Below, piece by piece: positions 3,223 through 21,310 of a stretch of 64,000 nt of DNA. Origin of the DNA: Hyphomicrobiales bacterium (lineage in GTDB: Bacteria > Pseudomonadota > Alphaproteobacteria > Rhizobiales > MH13); the NCBI GenBank assembly GCA_017642935.1, contig JAEPOK010000001.1, positions 1,116,001 through 1,180,000 of the forward strand. The letters run 5' to 3'. The stretch's first letter is position 1. Every line of letters begins with the position of its first letter. The notes under the pieces are model-generated. The model ran no database searches. It was given only the letters and a program-made list of their open reading frames with translations, and was not told the origin of the DNA. The position numbers and the translations under genes are program-made.

Positions 3223-4458
3223 CTACGCAGATTCACCAATGGCGGATTGCGTTAAATTTGCATTTTTCCTGCTGATTTTATCTGAGCCTGGGGATTCAAG
3301 CCCTCGGTCCGGCGTGGACCAGCGCGCAACTGAGGTCAGAAGCTGGTCTATGTCGGCTGATGTGGTTGCAAATCCGAGGCTCAAACGCAGCGCGCATGCG
3401 GCCAGGCTAGGTGGCACGTCCATCGCAGCCAACACGTGGCTCGCCTTCACCTTGCCGCTGGAACAAGCCGAGCCGGAGGACAAGGCAATACCGTCCAGAT
3501 CAAGCTGCATGAGCGCCAGTGCAGCCTCACGGCCTGGGATCGCAAAGCAGCTGGTATTGGCTAGACGGGCCGCGCCTCGCCCGAAGATGACAGCGTCAGG
3601 ATGCGTGGCGAGCAGCTCGTGTTCAAACCTGTCGCGCAAGTCGGCAAGGCGTTGCTGTTCGCCCGCCATTGTGTCGCACGCCGTCTTGAGGGCAGCGGCA
3701 AACCCAGCGATACCGATGGCATTTTCGGTGCCCGCGCGCAGGCCACGCTCCTGACCACCGCCGCGGATCAGTGGGGTGATCAAATGCAGCCGCATCGGGT
3801 CGTAGACAATGGCGCCAATGCCCGCCGGGCCACCGAGCTTATGGGCCGAAACGATGATAGCCGCAGGGCGCGCGTCGCCCACGGGCAGACGACCTACCCA
3901 TTGCACCAAATCGCAGACGAAAAGCGCCTGGTGAACGTCGCAGAGCGCAGCGATCTCATCGATAGGCTGCAGCACACCGGTTTCGTTGTTGGCGCCGTGA
4001 ACACTCACGATGGTTTGCGCATCTTCTGGCAAAGCGCTCAGCGCTTTCTTGAGCGCTTGGGTGTCGATCGCCCCATCCCGGCCGACGGACAGATATGTGG
4101 TTGCAGCCTTATCGAAACCATGACCTTGAAGCGCAGCCACGTGGTCCGTTGGCGCAATCAACAGGTGGGTCGCTCGCTGTTTGGTCGCCAGTGATTGCGT
4201 TGCCGGCGTCAACACCGTGGCGAGCGCTTCGCTGGCGCCGGAGGTAAACGCCAAGCGATAATCCGGCAGCCCAAGATCGTTGAGAATCGATGCCCGCGCC
4301 GTTTCAATGCGCTTGCGCGCTGCACGTCCAAAACCATGAATGGATGACGGATTGCCGATTTCGCCCATGGCCACATGCATCGCCTCGCGCGCCTCGGGGC
4401 GCAGCGGGCTTGTCGCATTGTAGTCGCCATACATCTGGCTAGTGAGCGCGTTGGCCAT
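3223..4458 (-). CDS. Cysteine desulfurase, NifS/IscS type, first gene of the suf operon
   Basis: This PLP-dependent class V aminotransferase-fold enzyme is about 411 residues. It opens with the typical DYNATSPL motif, has the PLP lysine in SAHKLGGPAG, and carries the active-site cysteine loop SSGSACSSGKVKASHV near residue 330. That short insertion form is the group I (NifS/IscS) type rather than SufS. It removes sulfur from L-cysteine for delivery to SufBCD. The nearest ATG is 4458, one codon after a TTG. The ribosome site is weak, so a start at ATG 4434 (MYGDYNATSP) is also possible. It is the promoter-proximal gene of desulfurase-sufB-ORF-ORF-sufC-sufD and is divergent from a hydrolase gene. 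Confidence 0.92.
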   Translation of the reverse strand: MANALTSQMYGDYNATSPLRPEAREAMHVAMGEIGNPSSIHGFGRAARKRIETARASILNDLGLPDYRLAFTSGASEALATVLTPATQSLATKQRATHLLIAPTDHVAALQGHGFDKAATTYLSVGRDGAIDTQALKKALSALPEDAQTIVSVHGANNETGVLQPIDEIAALCDVHQALFVCDLVQWVGRLPVGDARPAAIIVSAHKLGGPAGIGAIVYDPMRLHLITPLIRGGGQERGLRAGTENAIGIAGFAAALKTACDTMAGEQQRLADLRDRFEHELLATHPDAVIFGRGAARLANTSCFAIPGREAALALMQLDLDGIALSSGSACSSGKVKASHVLAAMDVPPSLAACALRLSLGFATTSADIDQLLTSVARWSTPDRGLESPGSDKISRKNANLTQSAIGESA

Positions 4459-4655
4459 CAATTAGGTCGCCGGCAAAGAAACCAAGGATTGCAGACCGAT
4501 AGACGCGAAAGCCGACGGCAAGAGGTCGAAAAACCTTGTTTTTCGAGCAGCGCCTGGTGTTAAGTGCGCCGCGACAGCCAGAGCACCGGAACGACCGTTG
4601 CCTAAGCTTGAAATTCTTGCACTCAGCCAACAGGTTCAAGGGCCTGCGGTTGAAG

Positions 4656-4672
4656 TTTAGAACCGTTCTAGG
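4656..4672. promoter_or_regulatory. Candidate Irr (ICE) box in the suf upstream region
   Basis: TTTAGAACCGTTCTAGG contains a perfect 13-base palindrome, TAGAAC-C-GTTCTA, at 4658-4670. It resembles the iron-control element bound by the Fur-family regulator Irr in Hyphomicrobiales (approximately TTTAGAA-N3-TTCTAAA), whose regulon in this order often includes suf genes. It lies about 200 bases upstream of the desulfurase start and 70 bases upstream of the divergent hydrolase. The promoter itself is not clear. The match to Irr is from memory of the consensus; the palindrome is directly visible. Confidence 0.5.
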
Positions 4673-4740
4673 TTTATTGCAGGCCGTGCGTCAAGGCGCT
4701 CGGCCTGATTTGTTGAAAATAGAAGGCAACAATTCTTACC

Positions 4741-13096: not shown

Positions 13097-13104
13097 TTAA
13101 CCAT
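13097..13104 (+). promoter_or_regulatory. Possible CtrA half-site
   Basis: TTAACCAT lies 50 bases before the M23 peptidase ATG. It matches the CtrA half-site TTAACCAT used in Hyphomicrobiales for cell-cycle genes. An eight-base match can occur by chance and no second TTAA half is present at the right spacing, so this is only a candidate. Confidence 0.25.
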
Positions 13105-13153
13105 GCTAGGCCCATGGTGCCGCTTGGTATTCTGTATGAGTGGTGGGTTCAAT

Positions 13154-14539
13154 ATGGCGATCGATACGCCGCATACGTTGTCAACGCCTTCGTCGCAGGC
13201 GGATTTCCAGAAATCCATCCAAGCTAATCAAGTCAAGCGGGCGCGTCGAGACCGGCGGATCATTCTGGCCCATGGCGACAGCGTGCAAGTATTGCGTGTG
13301 GCGCCTTGGCTCGGCGCGTTGTTGGTTCTGTTCGTGCTTGCCGGATCGGCGGGCGTCATCGCATCGGCGAGCTACCTCTTCTTCCGCGATGAACTTTTCA
13401 CGGCCTCGATAAAACGCCAGCATCAGATACAGGTGGCCTATGAAGATCGGGTCTCTGACCTTCGCCGTGAGATTGATCGGATCACCTCGCGTCAATTGCT
13501 GAACCAGCAGGCCTATGAAGCACGTGTGGAAAGGCTGCTCACCGAACATATGCAGCTTTACGAGCAAGGGGCGCGTCTCAACGTTATTCTTGACCGCGCT
13601 GGGTCACTGGGACTTGTTCCACGTCCAGCTCCGCCTTCGCCCGTCATCCCGCCGAACCAGGAAGCCAGCATCGCACCACGCATTCAACTTGGCACTATGG
13701 CCGTCAATCCCTCCCAGTTTGCGCCCATCCCAGATGGCGAGCTGATTACTGGCAGTATTCCACAATTGCCCACCGAGCGCGGCATGAGCGTTATGCAGCA
13801 CGCTGTGACCGAACCCGCCCGCTTGCTCGAAACGCTCGATGAATCCTTGGAAGCGCGCGAGTACAACCAGATGATCGCTTTGGCTGGGCTGGCCGCAGAG
13901 GCCAATCGCGAGGCCGATGGTATCGTCGAGGCTGTGCGCGGTCTTGGCGTAAGGGTAACACTGCCGAGCGCGTCGATGGAGCCGCTGCCCACCGCACTTA
14001 CTGGTCAGGACGCTATTGGCGGGCCGTTGCTTGCCCCCGTCGCCGGAACCGATCGATTCCAGGTTTACGTCGATGACGCCGAACGCGCGCTTGCCGACCT
14101 GCGCACAGCTCGTGACGCTATTGATTTGGTGCCCGTGGCGGCACCGGCGCGCAATGCCCGGCTGTCATCGCGCTTCGGCAATCGACGCGATCCTTTCACC
14201 CGTCGCTCAGCTTTTCATTCCGGTATTGATTATGCGGCACCAACAGGGACGCCGGTCTACGCGCCTGCCGATGGTGTGGTGACACGGGCACGTCGAACGG
14301 GTGGCTACGGTTTGATGATCGAGCTTGACCACGCCCACGGCCTATCGACACGGTTTGCGCATCTGTCGCGCATGCTGGTTTCGCCGGGAGCGCAGGTGCG
14401 CCAGGGCGACGTTATTGGGCGCATCGGATCGACCGGTCGCAGCACCGGCCCTCACCTTCACTATGAAGTGCGTCGTGGAACCCGCGCGATCGACCCCATG
14501 CCGTTTGTTCGGGCTGGTCAGCGGATTTCAGACCTTTAG
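13154..14539 (+). CDS. M23 (LytM-type) peptidoglycan endopeptidase, membrane-anchored
   Basis: From ATG 13154 the product is 461 residues. A basic cytoplasmic N-terminus precedes one membrane helix (ALLVLFVLAGSAGVIASASY), then a coiled-coil-like region, a Pro-rich linker, and a C-terminal M23 domain. The domain has complete zinc and catalytic motifs: HSGIDYAAP (H-x3-D) and GPHLHYEVR (H-x-H). It should cleave peptidoglycan cross-links in the periplasm during growth or division. A longer start at 13103 is possible but adds atypical sequence. It follows bcp and DUF455 and converges on dddL. Confidence 0.93.
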   Translation: MAIDTPHTLSTPSSQADFQKSIQANQVKRARRDRRIILAHGDSVQVLRVAPWLGALLVLFVLAGSAGVIASASYLFFRDELFTASIKRQHQIQVAYEDRVSDLRREIDRITSRQLLNQQAYEARVERLLTEHMQLYEQGARLNVILDRAGSLGLVPRPAPPSPVIPPNQEASIAPRIQLGTMAVNPSQFAPIPDGELITGSIPQLPTERGMSVMQHAVTEPARLLETLDESLEAREYNQMIALAGLAAEANREADGIVEAVRGLGVRVTLPSASMEPLPTALTGQDAIGGPLLAPVAGTDRFQVYVDDAERALADLRTARDAIDLVPVAAPARNARLSSRFGNRRDPFTRRSAFHSGIDYAAPTGTPVYAPADGVVTRARRTGGYGLMIELDHAHGLSTRFAHLSRMLVSPGAQVRQGDVIGRIGSTGRSTGPHLHYEVRRGTRAIDPMPFVRAGQRISDL

Positions 14540-14584
14540 TCGCTCGCAGTCTACCTGAGTTTCCGAGTAGGCCAGTGAATCTTG

Positions 14585-15253
14585 CTACTTGCGCGAGAAC
14601 ACCATTTTCTGATCTGCGAGTTTGTCCTTCGGCCCCACCCAGGCGTAAGCCATTAGCGCCGGCTCGCGGTTGGACACCGTGATGCGGTGGCGTTGACCGG
14701 GTGGATTGAAGATCATCGATCCGGGCGCGTAAACACCCTGGTGGTTTTCCGATACCGCGCCTGACAGGCACACATAGCTTTCGGTGATCCCATCATGGGC
14801 ATGCGAGGGATAGGTGCAGTCTGGCGCAAATAGAACAAGCCCCAAGATCACCTCTTCGGAGATCACCGGTCCAGACGGCCCACACAGCTCGGCATAGGCA
14901 TATTTGTCTTTTAGGCCGCGCGGCACTTTCTCATAGCCATATTGCCAATCGATCGACGCCTGCACAGCTTCAATCGCGCGGATGATGTTGGAATGCCGCT
15001 CCACGCGACCTTCATCGAGCGCCCGCCTTAGGTGTCCGGTTACCGGTTTTTTGATGCCAGTGCCCGGGACAAGCGGTCGGTTTGAACTCATCACCCGGCT
15101 GATTGCTTCGCGAACGGCGCGCTGATGGGCGCGAATTTGATTGCTGCCGCCGGAGGACAGGAAGCGGTAGATTTCGTAGAATTCGCGGAGCAGATAAATC
15201 CAGTCTGGAATATCGTTTAGGCGTTTCTGGCTGTCGTCGCTCGCTTCCGTCAT
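14585..15253 (-). CDS. dddL: DMSP lyase DddL (cupin)
   Basis: This 222-residue protein resembles DddL throughout. The N-terminus has DIPDWIYLLREFYEIYR and the middle has WQYGYEKVPRGL. The C-terminal cupin has the metal-binding pattern H151-x-H153-x4-E158-x-Y160 and a late His189 in PPGQRHRITV. DddL cleaves dimethylsulfoniopropionate, an algal osmolyte, to dimethyl sulfide and acrylate. The ATG at 15253 is 11 bases after the prfB stop on the same strand, so it may be read from the prfB transcript. No acrylate-processing genes (acuI, acuH) or DMSP transporter are in the window. Other cupin lyases (DddQ, DddW) are less similar in the N-terminal half, from memory. Confidence 0.88.
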   Translation of the reverse strand: MTEASDDSQKRLNDIPDWIYLLREFYEIYRFLSSGGSNQIRAHQRAVREAISRVMSSNRPLVPGTGIKKPVTGHLRRALDEGRVERHSNIIRAIEAVQASIDWQYGYEKVPRGLKDKYAYAELCGPSGPVISEEVILGLVLFAPDCTYPSHAHDGITESYVCLSGAVSENHQGVYAPGSMIFNPPGQRHRITVSNREPALMAYAWVGPKDKLADQKMVFSRK

Positions 15254-15264
15254 GGCCGGGCGCC

Positions 15265-16393
15265 CTAGTCCAAATCGGCCACGTCAGCGGTCCCACCATA
15301 AGCGCGCTGGGCAAGCGTCGCCTCCATGAAGCTGTCGAGCTTGCCGTCGAGAACGTCAGAGGGGGCGGTGCTCTCATGGCCGGTGCGCAGGTCTTTCACC
15401 AACTGATAGGGTTGCAGCACGTAGGAGCGAATCTGATGACCCCAGCCAATGTCGGTTTTGGCTGAGGCTTCCGCATTTGCCTTCTCTTCGCGCTTTTGCA
15501 GCTCCAGCTCATAGAGGCGTGCGCGCAGCATGTTCCAGGCGGTAGCGCGGTTCTTGTGCTGAGAGCGTTCATTCTGACACTGCACCACGATGCCGGTCGG
15601 GTTGTGGGTGATACGAACGGCAGAATCTGTCGTGTTGACGTGCTGACCGCCAGCGCCGGAGGCGCGATAGGTATCGATGCGGCAATCGCTCTCATTGATC
15701 TCAATGTTGATCGTGTCGTCGATCAGCGGATAAATCCAAACGCTGGCAAAGCTCGTGTGTCGACGAGCATTGGAATCATAAGGCGAGATGCGTACCAGGC
15801 GGTGCACGCCGGCTTCAGTTTTCAGCCAGCCGTAGGCATCGTCACCCTTCACTAGGATCGTCGCCGATTTGATGCCTGCCTCTTCCCCGGCTTGCTCTTC
15901 CAGCAATTCCACCTTGCGACCGGACTGCTCAGCCCAGCGGGTGTACATACGCAGGAGCATGTTGGCCCAATCTTGGCTTTCGGTGCCCCCTGCCCCGGAA
16001 TGGATTTCCACATAGGTGTCGTTGCCGTCGGCTTCGCCGGACAGCAGCGCTTCAACCTGCAAGCGGCGCGCTTTGGCGGCCAGCTCCTGCAGCGCCTTGA
16101 CGCCCTCTTCGGCCATTTCATCATCGCCTTCGGCCTCGCCGAGTTCGATGAGTTCGCTTGTGTCGGCAAGGTCGGTGCGCATGGCGTTCATGCCATTGAT
16201 CGCATCGTCGAGCTTTTGGCGCTCGCGCATCAGGCCTTGGGCTTCCTGCGGGTCGTCCCAGAGACGCGGATCTTCCGCCAGCGCGTTCAGTTCATCCAAA
16301 CGCTTGAGGGCAGCATCCCAGTCAAAGATGCCTCCTTAGCAGGGTGAGTGCCTGCTCAATGTCGTCTACTAGCCGCTGGGCTTCCGCGCGCAT
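15265..16393 (-). CDS. prfB: Peptide chain release factor 2, with programmed +1 frameshift
   Basis: RF2 is encoded in two frames. The ATG at 16393 starts 23 codons ([20 protein letters not shown] and RHL) ending at CTT 16325-16327, followed by an in-frame TGA. Skipping one base at 16324 gives [20 protein letters not shown] and the rest of RF2, a 375-residue protein. The GGQ catalytic motif is in [17 protein letters not shown] and the expected SPF-type recognition loop region precedes it. RF2 releases peptides at UGA and UAA, and the shift lets RF2 level regulate its own synthesis. A clear terminator separates it from mrcA. dddL follows 11 bases downstream. Confidence 0.96.
16322..16336 (-). 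promoter_or_regulatory. prfB +1 programmed frameshift site
   Basis: Read on the minus strand the site is AGGAGGCATCTTTGAC. It consists of an internal Shine-Dalgarno-like AGGAGG (16331-16336), three bases, the slippery CTT codon, the TGA stop (16322-16324) and a following C. Spacing is identical to the E. coli site AGGGGGTATCTTTGAC. Both flanking frames encode RF2 sequence, which confirms the shift. Confidence 0.95.
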
Positions 16394-16413
16394 GTGTCGG
16401 TCCTTAGGTCAGT

Positions 16414-16449
16414 CAAACAGAAAGGGCGCATGCTTTGCAGCACGCGCCC
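16414..16449 (-). terminator. Rho-independent terminator of mrcA
   Basis: On the minus strand GGGCGCGTGCT, loop GCAA, AGCATGCGCCC form an 11-base-pair stem with one G-U pair, followed by TTTCTGTTT. It lies between the mrcA stop and the prfB start. Confidence 0.8.
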
Positions 16450-16516
16450 GATGCAATGGGGTGATCATGTGGGATAAGTTGGACCGTTAGTAAAGTCCGT
16501 CTGATAGCAAGACGCG

Positions 16517-18955
16517 CTAGTACAGCCCGCCCGTGCCTGAAACCACCGCGCGATCGGCCTGTGGATCGACGGTCAAAAGGCGTCCCATATCGTCGGTGAA
16601 ACCGATGATAGAATAGGATGATGGCGGCGACGTTCCTGGGCGGAAGGCTTCGAGGATCGAGCCATCCGTGCCAGCTGCCACCTGCAGGCCCGTGCGGCGA
16701 TCGATCGGGATCAGTGAAATGCCACGTGGCACCTGGAATTCGGTGCGCGGTTGGCCTTCCAACGCCGCCTGCATGAAGTCAGCAAAGATCGGAGCCGCAA
16801 GCCCGCCACCGGTTGCCGAGCGGCCCATATCGCGCGGGTTGTCGTACCCGACATAAATGCCGACGGCGATGTCATGCGAATAGCCGACGAACCAAGCGTC
16901 TCGGTTGTCGTTCGTAGTGCCGGTCTTGCCAGCAATCGCCCAATTAGAAAGCTCGCCGGAGATACCGGCAGCCGTACCGCGGCGAACCACGCCCTCAAGC
17001 ATCGACGTCACCTGATAGGCGGTCATTGGGTCAAGCACCTGTTCGCGCTCATCGATCAGATTGGGTTCGTCCTGGCCCTGCCATGCTTCAGCGCGGCAGC
17101 CTTCGCAAAGACGTGCGTCATGACGGAAGATGGTGTTGCCGTAGCGGTCCTGCACGCGGTCGATCAGCGTCGGCTGAATGGCGCGGCCGCCGTTGGCGAT
17201 CACCGCATAGGCGCCTGTCATCCGCATAACGGTCGTTTCGCCTGAACCCAGCGACATGGCGAGCAGTGGATCGAGATCGTCATAGACGCCAAAACGGCGG
17301 GCATACTCCGACACAAGCGGCATGCCCATGTCGCGAGCCAGACGCACGGTCATCACGTTTCTTGAGCGCTCGATGCCAACGCGAAGCGTTTGGGGACCGT
17401 AGAACTCGTTGGAATAGTTGCTTGGCCGCCAGACGCCCAGACCAGGGCCCTGATCGATCTCAATCGGTGCATCCATAACCACGCTGGAGGGCGTGTAGCC
17501 ATTATCGAGCGCGGCTGCGTAGACGAACGGTTTGAACGACGAGCCAGGCTGGCGCTGCGCCTGGGTAGCGCGGTTGAACTGGCTCTCAGCGAACGAGAAA
17601 CCACCGACCATGGCGAGCACGCGGCCCGTATAAGGGTCCATTGCCACCATGCCACCGGAGACTTCGGGCACTTGACGCAGCGAATAGCTGACATCGCCGG
17701 CCTCGGTCGGTTCGGCGCGCACATAGATCACATCGCCAGCCGTCACGATCTCAGAAGGGTTGGACCCAGCCCATTCCATCGCCGATGCAGGCATGAAGCC
17801 GGTCGGACGTTCGTCTGACAGGGCGCGTGAGGCAAGGCGCGGTGGCATCAAGCCAAGCTGCGCGCCATCCTCGCCAACGGCCAAAACGACCGCCAGCGAC
17901 CATTCTTCGATATCGGACAAACCATCGACGTCGCCGAGGGCAGCGCCCCAGTCCTGCGTGATGTCGATGGTGGTAACAGCGCCGCGCCATCCGCGCTGAC
18001 GGTCAAAGTTCTCTAGGCCGTCGCGCATCGCACGGCGGGCATGGCTTTGCAGCACGGGGTCAAGTGTCGTGCGCACGGAAAGACCGCCTTCGTAGAGACC
18101 ATCATCGCCATAGCGATCGGCGATTTCGCGGCGCACTTCCTCTGCAAAATAGTCGGACGCTTCAAGGAAGTTGCCGGTGTTGCGCGGCAGAACGTTAAGC
18201 GGCTCTGCCTGGGCAGCGGCGCGCTGTTCCTCAGTGATGTAGCCATTCTCGAACATGCGGGTGAGCACCCAGTCACGACGTTCGATGGCGCGTTCGGTCT
18301 GACGGAACGGGTGATAGTTGTTCGGCGCTTTGGGCAGCGCAGCCAAATAGGCCGCCTCGGCCAATGTCAGCTCGTGGACGGACTTATCGAAGTAAACGAG
18401 GGACGCAGCGGCAATGCCGTAGGCACCAAGGCCGAGATAAATCTCGTTGAGATAGAGTTCTAGAATCTCGTCCTTGGTGAAGGTGCGCTCAATGCGCAGG
18501 GCAAGGATGGCCTCGCGAATTTTGCGTTCAATCGCGACATCGCCGGACAGAAGGAAGTTTTTCGCAACCTGCTGGGTGATCGTCGAGGCACCGACAGGTC
18601 GACGATTGGTGCCAAGATTCTCAATGTTGACGACAATAGCGCGGGCAATGCCGGTGAAATCCAGGCCGCCATGCTCATAAAAATTCTTGTCTTCGGCCGA
18701 CAGGAACGCTGCTTTCAACACATCGGGCATCGACTGGATCGGCAGAAACAGGCGCCGCTCGGTTGCGTACTCAGCAATCAGCGCACCATCGGAGGCGTGC
18801 ACACGCGTCATCACCGGCGGCTCATAATCGCTGAGCACCGTATAGTCGGGCAAATCCTGGGAATAATAGTGGATGCCATAGGCGACGCCGCCGGCCACCA
18901 ATAGGAAGCCGAGAACACCTATGCCGAACAGGTAACCCAGAAACTTCGTGAACAT
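16517..18955 (-). CDS. mrcA: Penicillin-binding protein 1A (bifunctional)
   Basis: This 812-residue class A PBP has an N-terminal membrane helix (about residues 5-27). The glycosyltransferase domain has the catalytic glutamate in SAEDKNFYEHGG and the RPVGASTITQQVAKNFLL motif. An OB-like insert follows, then the transpeptidase domain with the SxxK serine in QPGSSFKPFVYAAAL, an SRN motif (ERSRNVMTVRL) and KTG in AGKTGTTNDNRDAWF. It polymerises and cross-links peptidoglycan in the periplasm. It is downstream of an N-acetylmuramoyl-L-alanine amidase gene on the same strand with about 250 bases between, and it ends in a strong terminator. Confidence 0.96.
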   Translation of the reverse strand: MFTKFLGYLFGIGVLGFLLVAGGVAYGIHYYSQDLPDYTVLSDYEPPVMTRVHASDGALIAEYATERRLFLPIQSMPDVLKAAFLSAEDKNFYEHGGLDFTGIARAIVVNIENLGTNRRPVGASTITQQVAKNFLLSGDVAIERKIREAILALRIERTFTKDEILELYLNEIYLGLGAYGIAAASLVYFDKSVHELTLAEAAYLAALPKAPNNYHPFRQTERAIERRDWVLTRMFENGYITEEQRAAAQAEPLNVLPRNTGNFLEASDYFAEEVRREIADRYGDDGLYEGGLSVRTTLDPVLQSHARRAMRDGLENFDRQRGWRGAVTTIDITQDWGAALGDVDGLSDIEEWSLAVVLAVGEDGAQLGLMPPRLASRALSDERPTGFMPASAMEWAGSNPSEIVTAGDVIYVRAEPTEAGDVSYSLRQVPEVSGGMVAMDPYTGRVLAMVGGFSFAESQFNRATQAQRQPGSSFKPFVYAAALDNGYTPSSVVMDAPIEIDQGPGLGVWRPSNYSNEFYGPQTLRVGIERSRNVMTVRLARDMGMPLVSEYARRFGVYDDLDPLLAMSLGSGETTVMRMTGAYAVIANGGRAIQPTLIDRVQDRYGNTIFRHDARLCEGCRAEAWQGQDEPNLIDEREQVLDPMTAYQVTSMLEGVVRRGTAAGISGELSNWAIAGKTGTTNDNRDAWFVGYSHDIAVGIYVGYDNPRDMGRSATGGGLAAPIFADFMQAALEGQPRTEFQVPRGISLIPIDRRTGLQVAAGTDGSILEAFRPGTSPPSSYSIIGFTDDMGRLLTVDPQADRAVVSGTGGLY

Positions 18956-19206
18956 ACGTTCATCCGTTCATTCTTGTGGTTGCGCCCGCCATCCCAAGCC
19001 CAAAGGCCAGAACCACTCAAGCGCAGTATGGTAAATGCACCGTTAGCTTTTCGTGCCTGCCCGCGCATTGAGCGTGCGCAGCTAACGATTGGAACCGCTA
19101 AGTGCCCCAATTGGTTCCACCGTAGGCGGGGGCGATGCGGCGGAAATAGGGCACTTTGGTCAACAACGGCGATGACAGGCGATATGGGCGCTCGTTTCAG
19201 CCCTCG

Positions 19207-20538
19207 CTATGGCGCGCTTGCAACACGCTGCTCAAAAAACCGCTCAACGGCTGTCGAAAGCGAGGCGATTGTGCGCTCGCGCCAAGCTGCGTCCGACAAA
19301 AGCCTGACATCGTCCTCGTTGGACAGGAATCCGAGTTCCAACAGAACGGATGGGATTTCCGGCGCTTTGAGCACCCGAAACCCCGCCGAGCGATGGGGAT
19401 TGTTGACCATGCGCGTGGCCGTCGACAGTTCGTTCACAACATCCTCGGCAAACGCCAGCGAAAAGCGGGTCGTTTCACGGCGGGTTAAGTCAATCAGAAT
19501 ATCGGCAACCTCGTTGGTCGCCGTTTCGGTGACATCCATGCCGGCGAGCATTTCCGAACGGCGTTCATTGTCGACCAGTTGCTGGGCGATCTCGTCCGAA
19601 GCACGATCGGAAAGCGTATAAACCGTGGCGCCGCGCATATCCCGGTGACGGACCAGCGAATCGGCGTGCACGGAGATGAAGAGATCGGCATGATGGTTCT
19701 GCGCGAACCTTACGCGGCCGGCCAAAGGAATGAAAACATCATCATCGCGGGTCATATAGACCTCAAAGCGACCGGTGGCCCGTAGATCGGCGACGAACTC
19801 GCGGGCGAAGCGCAGGACGACCTCTTTCTCCAGGACGCCTGACCGGCTGACGGCACCAGAATCGATGCCGCCATGGCCCGGATCAACCACAATGATCGGG
19901 CGTCCGCTGGTGTTGGCAATATCGAGCCGGTTTTCCTTTGGCGCCTCAACGCTGGCGAGAAAACTCTCACGCGTGCGCTCGACTTCGGCCATGAACCCAT
20001 CTTCATCGCTGCGCACAAGATCAAGCACCAAGCGCGCGGGCTGGTCATCAAGAGCTGCGAGCATCAGGATTTCGTCGATCACCACATAATCGGATAGATC
20101 GACGACGATGCGTCCACGACCAGGGGCAAATGGTCCATACCGAAAGGCGGAAATCAGCCCGCGTGGCTCAACATCCGCATCATCCATCGGTTCGAAGGAG
20201 AGGCCTGGCAAGTCCAAAATCAAGCGATTGGGCTCTGGCAACAGATAGACCGATGGCGCAACTTCGCCTGCCAGGTCGATGACAATACGTGTGCGAACCT
20301 CATCGCCAGCAATGCGGGCTGCAAGCGCGGCCGCCTGGTCTGCGGGCTGGAAGGACGCTTCTTCAGTTGCTTGCGCAGCCCAGGGCCAGAAGAGCCCGAT
20401 CAGGAGCAGCAGGCAAAGCGTGATCTTCACGATGGCCAGCGTGTTCGTCAGATTGTCGCCGCCTGAGCGCTCACGCGCCCGGGTCCCGGGAGTCTCTTGG
20501 GAAACAGGGAGGCCGAAGCTGGTCAATCGATCTCTCAT
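19207..20538 (-). CDS. amiC: N-acetylmuramoyl-L-alanine amidase with AMIN domain
   Basis: From ATG 20538 the product is 443 residues; a TTG three codons upstream is also open. A signal/anchor segment (ITLCLLLLIGLFWPWAAQA, near residue 45) has an unusually long N-terminal lead. An AMIN domain of about 110 residues follows, then an Amidase_3 domain with zinc ligands in VDPGHGGIDSGA, EKEVVLRFAREF and ISVHADS, and the catalytic glutamate in LLELGFLSN. It removes stem peptides from peptidoglycan during daughter cell separation. The N-terminal lead suggests the true start might be nearer the signal segment. The symbol is by family; amiA/amiB naming is equally possible. Confidence 0.9.
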   Translation of the reverse strand: MRDRLTSFGLPVSQETPGTRARERSGGDNLTNTLAIVKITLCLLLLIGLFWPWAAQATEEASFQPADQAAALAARIAGDEVRTRIVIDLAGEVAPSVYLLPEPNRLILDLPGLSFEPMDDADVEPRGLISAFRYGPFAPGRGRIVVDLSDYVVIDEILMLAALDDQPARLVLDLVRSDEDGFMAEVERTRESFLASVEAPKENRLDIANTSGRPIIVVDPGHGGIDSGAVSRSGVLEKEVVLRFAREFVADLRATGRFEVYMTRDDDVFIPLAGRVRFAQNHHADLFISVHADSLVRHRDMRGATVYTLSDRASDEIAQQLVDNERRSEMLAGMDVTETATNEVADILIDLTRRETTRFSLAFAEDVVNELSTATRMVNNPHRSAGFRVLKAPEIPSVLLELGFLSNEDDVRLLSDAAWRERTIASLSTAVERFFEQRVASAP

Positions 20539-20547
20539 CTTCTGCAA

Positions 20548-21310
20548 GACGGCTAAGCATACAAGGGCGCCACAGTGACGCCAAAGGCTTAGCCGCCATT
20601 TTTACGACGGTTACCACATCCTAAAGGCTGGTGGTAAACCAATCTCAAACAACCAATGAGCAGGGTTTTGGCCGAAATAGCAGGCCGGTTGGGCCACCAA
20701 GCACATTGATGATGCTTGCAAAATCGTCGTTGGAAGCGTACATCACAAGAACTTGCAGGGGGTGGCCGTGGTTAAAAATCAACCAGTCACGAGACCTTGT
20801 TGGCACTATGCGGCATTGATCTGATCGGCACCGGCGTTCCGCTGGACTTCGCCCATCCGAACCGAGTGCAGAGCGATCGGCCCTTTGAGGAGGGTTGGCA
20901 TACACCGTTCTCGAAGGCTTGGTTGTGGCTCCGACAGGAAGATGACTTTAACATCGCGGCTGTGCCTTGGGTCGTCGGCCCTTGCAAGATGATAGCTTTT
21001 TGGCGGTGCGCGATGTTCCGCGCCGCCTGTTAGACCGGAATACAAATGGTGCTGCGCCTGTTGCCTTGTGTATCGAACACCGCCTCGTCGCGGTTACGTT
21101 CGTATAGGCACGCGCCCGTCCATGACGTTATCGCTGACGACGGCGTCCGACGGAGGATTGCACCGGTTCCACCCGCTTTCGCTCGATCTCGATCGGCTGA
21201 GCCGCTTGCGGCCATCCGAAGGGGCAGCGCTTTTTTCTCTACAGAACCGTTGGCGACCGCCGCTGAGCTTGTTCCTCTTGCTCGGCCTGCGCGCCCCAAG
21301 GAACCCTTCA
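20548..21310. other. Intergenic region and long rne leader
   Basis: About 770 bases separate the divergent amiC and rne starts. No frame here has family-like coding sequence. A hairpin pairs GGTTACCAC (20609-20617) with GTGGTAAACC (20631-20640). The stretch nearest rne is a likely 5' leader, since RNase E genes in other bacteria have long autoregulatory leaders. No known RNA family could be recognised by eye. Confidence 0.5.

Follow-up and report, generated by a model that had tools for sequence, protein, structure and literature searches.

Our analysis of a 64,000-nucleotide stretch of a Hyphomicrobiales genome (hereafter, the window) points, with a probability that we put at about 80%, to a working dddL gene that moved as a piece of some 0.7 kb into the junction between prfB, the gene for release factor RF2, and an M23 peptidase gene, and then became the last gene of the prfB transcript. 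DddL is a family of DMSP lyases yielding dimethyl sulfide (DMS), a climate-relevant gas. The enzyme encoded here is an ordinary, intact member of this known family, and only its address is unusual. Most likely it works as a metal-dependent cupin lyase that would split DMSP, giving acrylate and dimethyl sulfide, and also DMSOP, giving acrylate and DMSO; the latter reaction has been reported for cloned dddL. The insertion would date to the lineage of this species, after its split from the nearest congener examined. The inserted piece would have held little beyond the coding sequence, set between prfB and the convergent M23 gene with both left intact, and dddL would then probably be transcribed behind prfB, lacking the LysR gene found ahead of the sister copy in a congener.

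The prfB/M23 junction

The dddL open reading frame (positions 14585 to 15253, minus strand) runs over 222 codons from an ATG start to a TAG stop and encodes a cupin DMSP lyase of 222 residues, an assignment based on family match, sequence identity, active-site residues and predicted fold. Ahead of it on the same strand lies prfB (15265 to 16393; TIGR00020, 504.7 bits), which is read with a +1 frameshift and ends in the TAG codon at 15267–15265. A spacer of 11 nt (15254 to 15264) leads from this stop to the dddL ATG at 15253, and the coordinates thus bear out the sequence-only reading, which had placed dddL 11 bases past the RF2 stop on the same strand. By eye, the spacer contains no GGAGG-type ribosome-binding site, and no clear Shine-Dalgarno sequence leads up to the dddL ATG. 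On its far side the insertion is bounded by the M23 peptidase gene (13103 to 14539, plus strand), identified by family search, which converges on dddL and ends 45 nt from it. Here and below, the gene labels M23, DUF455, prfB, LysR and YunG come from family searches, and the labels bcp, TRAP (TAXI, DctM), M20, TauE, ure and penicillin-binding protein were read by eye from translations.

In all three congeners (G001, G002 and G003), the convergent M23 gene comes immediately after prfB, with no dddL in between. Measured from alignment end to alignment end, the two genes lie 7 to 55 nt apart in the congeners versus 732 nt in the window's genome; one of the three, G002, is 78% complete, with its own prfB/M23 junction fully read. 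In the wider sample, prfB matches were present in 96 of 101 genomes, and the best 30 of these 96 were read as loci. The distance from prfB to an M23 gene is no more than 150 nt at 15 of the 29 loci other than the window's, namely in the three congeners and in 12 of 26 others of the order. In the remaining loci the M23 gene is found at 533–634 nt (two loci) or at 1209 nt (one, at a contig end), and 11 have none in the stretch read. Outside the genus, the M23 genes beside prfB share only 32–38% protein identity; judged from sequence, they are likely orthologous. Since M23 occurs near prfB both in the congeners and at other prfB loci, the prfB/M23 pair is probably old and interrupted here by dddL.

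The position of dddL is derived and common to no other genome examined. A DMSP_lyase match at E ≤ 0.001 is present in 36 of the 101 genomes (over the curated cut-off in 27), and 35 of these 36 also have a prfB match; judged by eye from the listed coordinates, the two stand side by side only in the window's genome. Similarly, no prfB was found beside dddL outside the window's genome among 67 loci with a dddL-like match (several overlapping the same place and three with almost no flank on one side), and prfB occurs only in the three of them that come from the window's genome. In Roseibium aggregatum IAM 12614, dddL has a different neighbourhood, the 6 kb to each side of it being free of prfB. 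We found no paper joining dddL with prfB in the open-access literature, most subscription papers lying outside that search. The comparison of synteny downstream of prfB, which the sequence-only reading had suggested as a check, therefore agrees with its view that the location is unusual: the junction is closed in the congeners and short at many other loci of the order, and the prfB-dddL order appears in no relative examined. Its word "inserted" holds in so far as a lone gene sits in a junction that is closed in the congeners; given the sister gene elsewhere in G003, the event may have been a move within the genus instead of a fresh acquisition.

Two further observations concern gene surroundings. 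In two other relatives (loci L087 and L096), prfB and M23 are separated by more than 500 nt (about 530–630 nt), and given these gaps the junction may have accepted insertions more than once. The same neighbours (clusters c1, c2 and c3, loci L033 to L067) are often met again beside dddL in Roseibium and Stappia, although some of them may be shadow frames.

Origin of the gene

The closest relative of the window's dddL belongs to the congener G003, where it lies on a different contig (C4) from the organism's own prfB (C6). In the tree the two dddL genes are sisters with support 100/98 and 80% protein identity; on the adjoining branches support drops to 92/88 and 92/34. Apart from dddL, 17 gene pairs were compared between the window's genome and G003, with a median identity of 73.7% and four of the 17 above the 80% of dddL; three of the pairs, at 39–44%, are probably shadow frames or paralogues. 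At the DNA level the two dddL genes are 71% identical (dN 0.155) and have therefore not been exchanged recently between the two genomes.

The G003 locus has, on one strand, a LysR gene, dddL, a YunG gene and three more genes up to a TRAP-type transporter, and on its other side an M20-type peptidase gene. Both the window's genome and G002 possess the transporter and peptidase genes at that locus, without LysR, dddL and YunG. In G001, a LysR gene (74%) sits at the end of a contig, with some 2.1 kb between it and the transporter, and the genome gave no DMSP_lyase match; the window's genome contains no close LysR counterpart, the best reaching 44%. Because G003 carries the sister gene elsewhere, beside a LysR gene, the event may have been a move within the genus. 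Relocation and separate acquisition are both possible, and one dddL in the genus, moved or lost, makes the simplest story. The G003 locus (L099, 3563–9231) also bears partial second copies of the ends of the YunG gene and of a DctM-like gene (4388–4708), adjoined by a 604-residue protein without a Pfam match, a structure that suggests repeated insertion there.

A plausible alternative, to which we would give somewhat less than even odds, is that another genus supplied the gene by fresh lateral transfer straight into the prfB slot, without any link to the G003 copy. It would suit the patchy distribution of dddL: counting the window's genome, the class sample has 11 matching genomes out of 385 (10 of the 384 others at E ≤ 1e-20, with an identity of only 36% in one case), and two of the four species of the genus examined have a DMSP_lyase match. 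Moreover, the window's dddL is 77% identical to genes of a Rhodobiaceae MAG and a Geminicoccaceae MAG versus 80% to that of the congener, and over the same step from G003 to the Rhodobiaceae MAG (G027) prfB falls from 88% to 74%. Since dddL keeps 77% identity to the MAG genes and the G027 prfB only 74%, sequence comparison suggests that dddL travels between families. What speaks against an independent arrival is that the nearest gene in the tree is nevertheless the congeneric one, firmly supported as sister, and that its identity lies within the range of the other gene pairs between the two species, as expected of descent in the genus. The lateral transfer dealt with in the cited passage of PMC5015088 concerns dddP, not dddL.

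An ancestral prfB-dddL order lost everywhere else is hardly credible, and we found nothing in its favour: the junction is closed in all three congeners, and at 12 of 26 other prfB loci of the order M23 lies no more than 150 nt away. In the strict sense, though, dddL may have stood behind prfB ancestrally and then been lost.

Several possible traces of the event were considered and set aside. The composition of dddL gives no sign of recent foreign origin: its GC3 is 0.66, while 41 long, non-overlapping ORFs of the window average 0.67 (sd 0.03), and in codon score it falls about 0.4 sd short of their mean. Between 13800 and 16600 there are 14 direct-repeat families and six inverted pairs, all short. 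An imperfect 14-nt repeat near both borders (12 of 14 bases; 14534–14547 and 15231–15244) is taken as chance because a third copy lies inside prfB (16213–16226). No obvious mobile-element sequence was seen at the dddL borders.

Within this one genus, dddL occurs at two different sites, unaccompanied in both, and in the window the site is a junction of housekeeping genes. Such a distribution agrees with the patchiness of dddL and cautions against using gene neighbourhood to predict who makes DMS.

Probable expression behind prfB

The prfB frame begins at 16393, upstream of the start at 16299 to which plain ORF calling leads. The programmed frameshift site (CTT TGA C, 16321 to 16327, minus strand) stands after AGGAGG and comes after 23 codons, the in-frame TGA being codon 24. 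According to a passage of PMC8073009, the RF2 frameshift is broadly conserved and autoregulatory. Between prfB and the upstream gene, penicillin-binding-protein-like by eye, a scan found a terminator-like hairpin of 11 pairs (16424 to 16449, minus strand), which is suggestive only, as five such sites were found in 14300–20700 versus 5.8 expected by chance. A scan for the sigma-70 consensus over 14300–19891 detected nothing promoter-like on the minus strand, a silence that is weak evidence, the scan having returned three sites in all versus 2.8 expected.

In Rhodobacter sphaeroides 2.4.1, dddL is the promoter-distal gene of an acuR-acuI-dddL operon (passage in PMC3017554), and the window's dddL is likewise presumed to come last. 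The partners differ: an acrylate-responsive repressor and acuI in R. sphaeroides, presumably a translation-factor gene here. Neither acuR nor acuI adjoins the window's dddL, whose neighbours are prfB and M23. If the window's dddL does not respond to acrylate, it would be no exception: the same source mentions, with data not shown there, that acrylate had no inducing effect on DMS in four other dddL strains, Stappia aggregata IAM 12614 included.

That two genes adjoin does not by itself make them one transcript: in B. subtilis, prfB and its downstream neighbour are not usually co-transcribed (as described in part of PMC8073009). It is possible, if unlikely, that dddL is driven by a separate promoter within the 3′ portion of prfB, in which case the location would have little regulatory meaning. 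Such a promoter would be in keeping with the varied surroundings of dddL in 45 loci, where own or borrowed signals would often be needed, a weak comparison given that the frame caller picked shadow frames in several loci. The closeness of prfB, a mere 11 nt away, argues otherwise, as does the lack of a promoter-like site nearby on the dddL strand in the admittedly weak scan. We accordingly favour dddL as the last gene of the prfB transcript. The highly expressed operon of the sequence-only reading, and the constitutive expression that it thought possible, are proposals.

Such a shared transcript could, we conjecture, feel RF2 autoregulation. A bolder proposal, which we regard as distinctly improbable, is that RF2 autoregulation has come to include dddL as well, DMS output following translation-termination capacity and not DMSP or acrylate. 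The layout relevant to this proposal consists of the frameshift site, the 11-nt gap and the TAG stop. If ribosomes stopped at the in-frame TGA, over 1 kb of the prfB mRNA would go untranslated, which could lower dddL output, and a shortage of RF2 would raise frameshifting and with it reading through to the junction; the prfB stop at the junction, being a TAG read by RF1, might provide a second link. In B. subtilis, RF depletion left genes at most 30 nt downstream of a cognate stop mildly less expressed, for which the authors blame idle ribosomes (passage in PMC8073009). The arrangement offers a natural test of whether a translation-factor transcript can run a catabolic gene.

Family and active site

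On the evidence of its sequence, the gene is a dddL. The protein matches Pfam DMSP_lyase (PF16867) with 135.9 bits (E 1.4e-39, cut-off 27) over the whole domain, profile positions 2–161 of 162, and an NCBIfam search gave a single faint match, to ChrR (13 bits versus a cut-off of 300). It is the sole DMSP_lyase match at E ≤ 0.001 in its 3.74-Mb genome; in 14 control genomes the same search gave matches in two and none over the cut-off. Over 221 residues the protein is 68% identical to that of Roseibium (Stappia) aggregatum IAM 12614, formerly Stappia aggregata IAM 12614, a strain described in part of PMC3017554 as dddL-containing and Ddd+ (DMS-producing); the two proteins also have the same active-site residues and similar length. 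For L. aggregata, a strain left unnamed in the passage, a dddL mutant is reported to have lost about 97% of DMSOP lyase activity (PMC10686828).

A pattern scan of named genomes with the window protein found 38 loci encoding a relative, 27 of them assigned by title to Roseibium/Labrenzia, Stappia, or Rhodobacteraceae and allied genera. These relatives are 58–77% identical, except at two partial loci (L064 and L065) and one weak locus (L068, 37% over 73 residues), which were left out of the tree. With the 35 loci that entered the tree, the G003 protein makes up a DddL clade of 36, to which the window protein is 57.8–80.2% identical over at least 210 residues. In a sequence search against solved structures the best matches were DddQ-type chains, at only 24–31 bits, with no DddW or DddK chain among the matches. 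The search against DddL, DddQ and DddW that had been proposed as a check thus groups the protein with DddL, apart from DddQ, DddW and DddK, by pairwise comparison, the tree being built without sequences of the latter three families.

The active site is complete. Cupin motif 1 extends from Y148 to Y160 (14774 to 14812, minus strand; counted from the start codon), and the metal-ligand histidine of motif 2, placed by alignment, is H189 (14687 to 14689, minus strand). As had been claimed from the sequence, all the metal ligands (H151, H153, E158 and H189) are present. We aligned 32 proteins, comprising the window's, that of G003, 25 from the 38 named loci and five at 47–50% identity (G039, G044, G082, G083 and G021); Y148, H151, H153, E158 and Y160 are each conserved in 32 of 32 and H189 in 31. 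In our matching of the numberings, these six residues correspond to the catalytic residues Tyr120, His123, His125, Glu129, Tyr131 and His163 of DddQ, named in passages of PMC4437653 and PMC5395565. Against the full cupin motifs given in part of PMC4437653 (GX5HXHX3,4EX6G and GX5PXGX2HX3N), ligands and spacing fit, with D145 in place of the first G and V193 in place of the last N; among the aligned proteins, G occupies the D145 position in 20 of 32 and N the V193 position in none. When the structure predicted for the protein (mean pLDDT 90.8) was compared with the PDB, the top six rows, which belong to five entries, were all DddQ-type DMSP lyases. DddQ (PDB 4la2, 4b29 and 5cu1) shares the cupin fold and the active-site residues, but is a different DMSP lyase family, with only 18–20% identity in the fold alignments.

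A DMSP-lyase-like cupin acting on another substrate is very improbable. Family membership alone does not prove the substrate, and a second clade at 47–50% identity exists; the window's protein, however, falls among those about 68–77% identical, including that of R. aggregatum, and its active site is complete. In that separate DddL-like clade (L004, L005, L007, L008 and L009), WSEN replaces VSENHQ. Outside the class, Desulfogranum mediterraneum (Thermodesulfobacteriota; L057, 6001–6639) encodes a DddL-type protein of 65% identity, which suggests, on sequence grounds, lateral transfer between phyla. Among 72,556 plasmid records, three contain a dddL relative; the best, CP049030.1, is 49.8% identical and carries the annotation DddL.

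Rest of the DMSP pathway

A passage of PMC5395565 describes a route for DMSP through the lyase, PrpE and AcuI. In the window's genome, where dddL lies on contig C1, one AcuI/YhdH-type match exceeds its cut-off (C3, 39414–40379; 422 bits versus 297), one BCCT transporter was found (C2, 1177102–1178631; 486 bits), and the PrpE-like matches stay below the cut-off of 827, the best scoring 723 bits (C2, 1260275–1262152). All three are candidates only, because the same models match in many of the 14 control genomes: AcuI in 13 (two over the cut-off), BCCT in four (all four over) and PrpE in 12 (one over). Candidates for acrylate handling and for uptake thus lie elsewhere in the genome, where the rest of the pathway had been expected.
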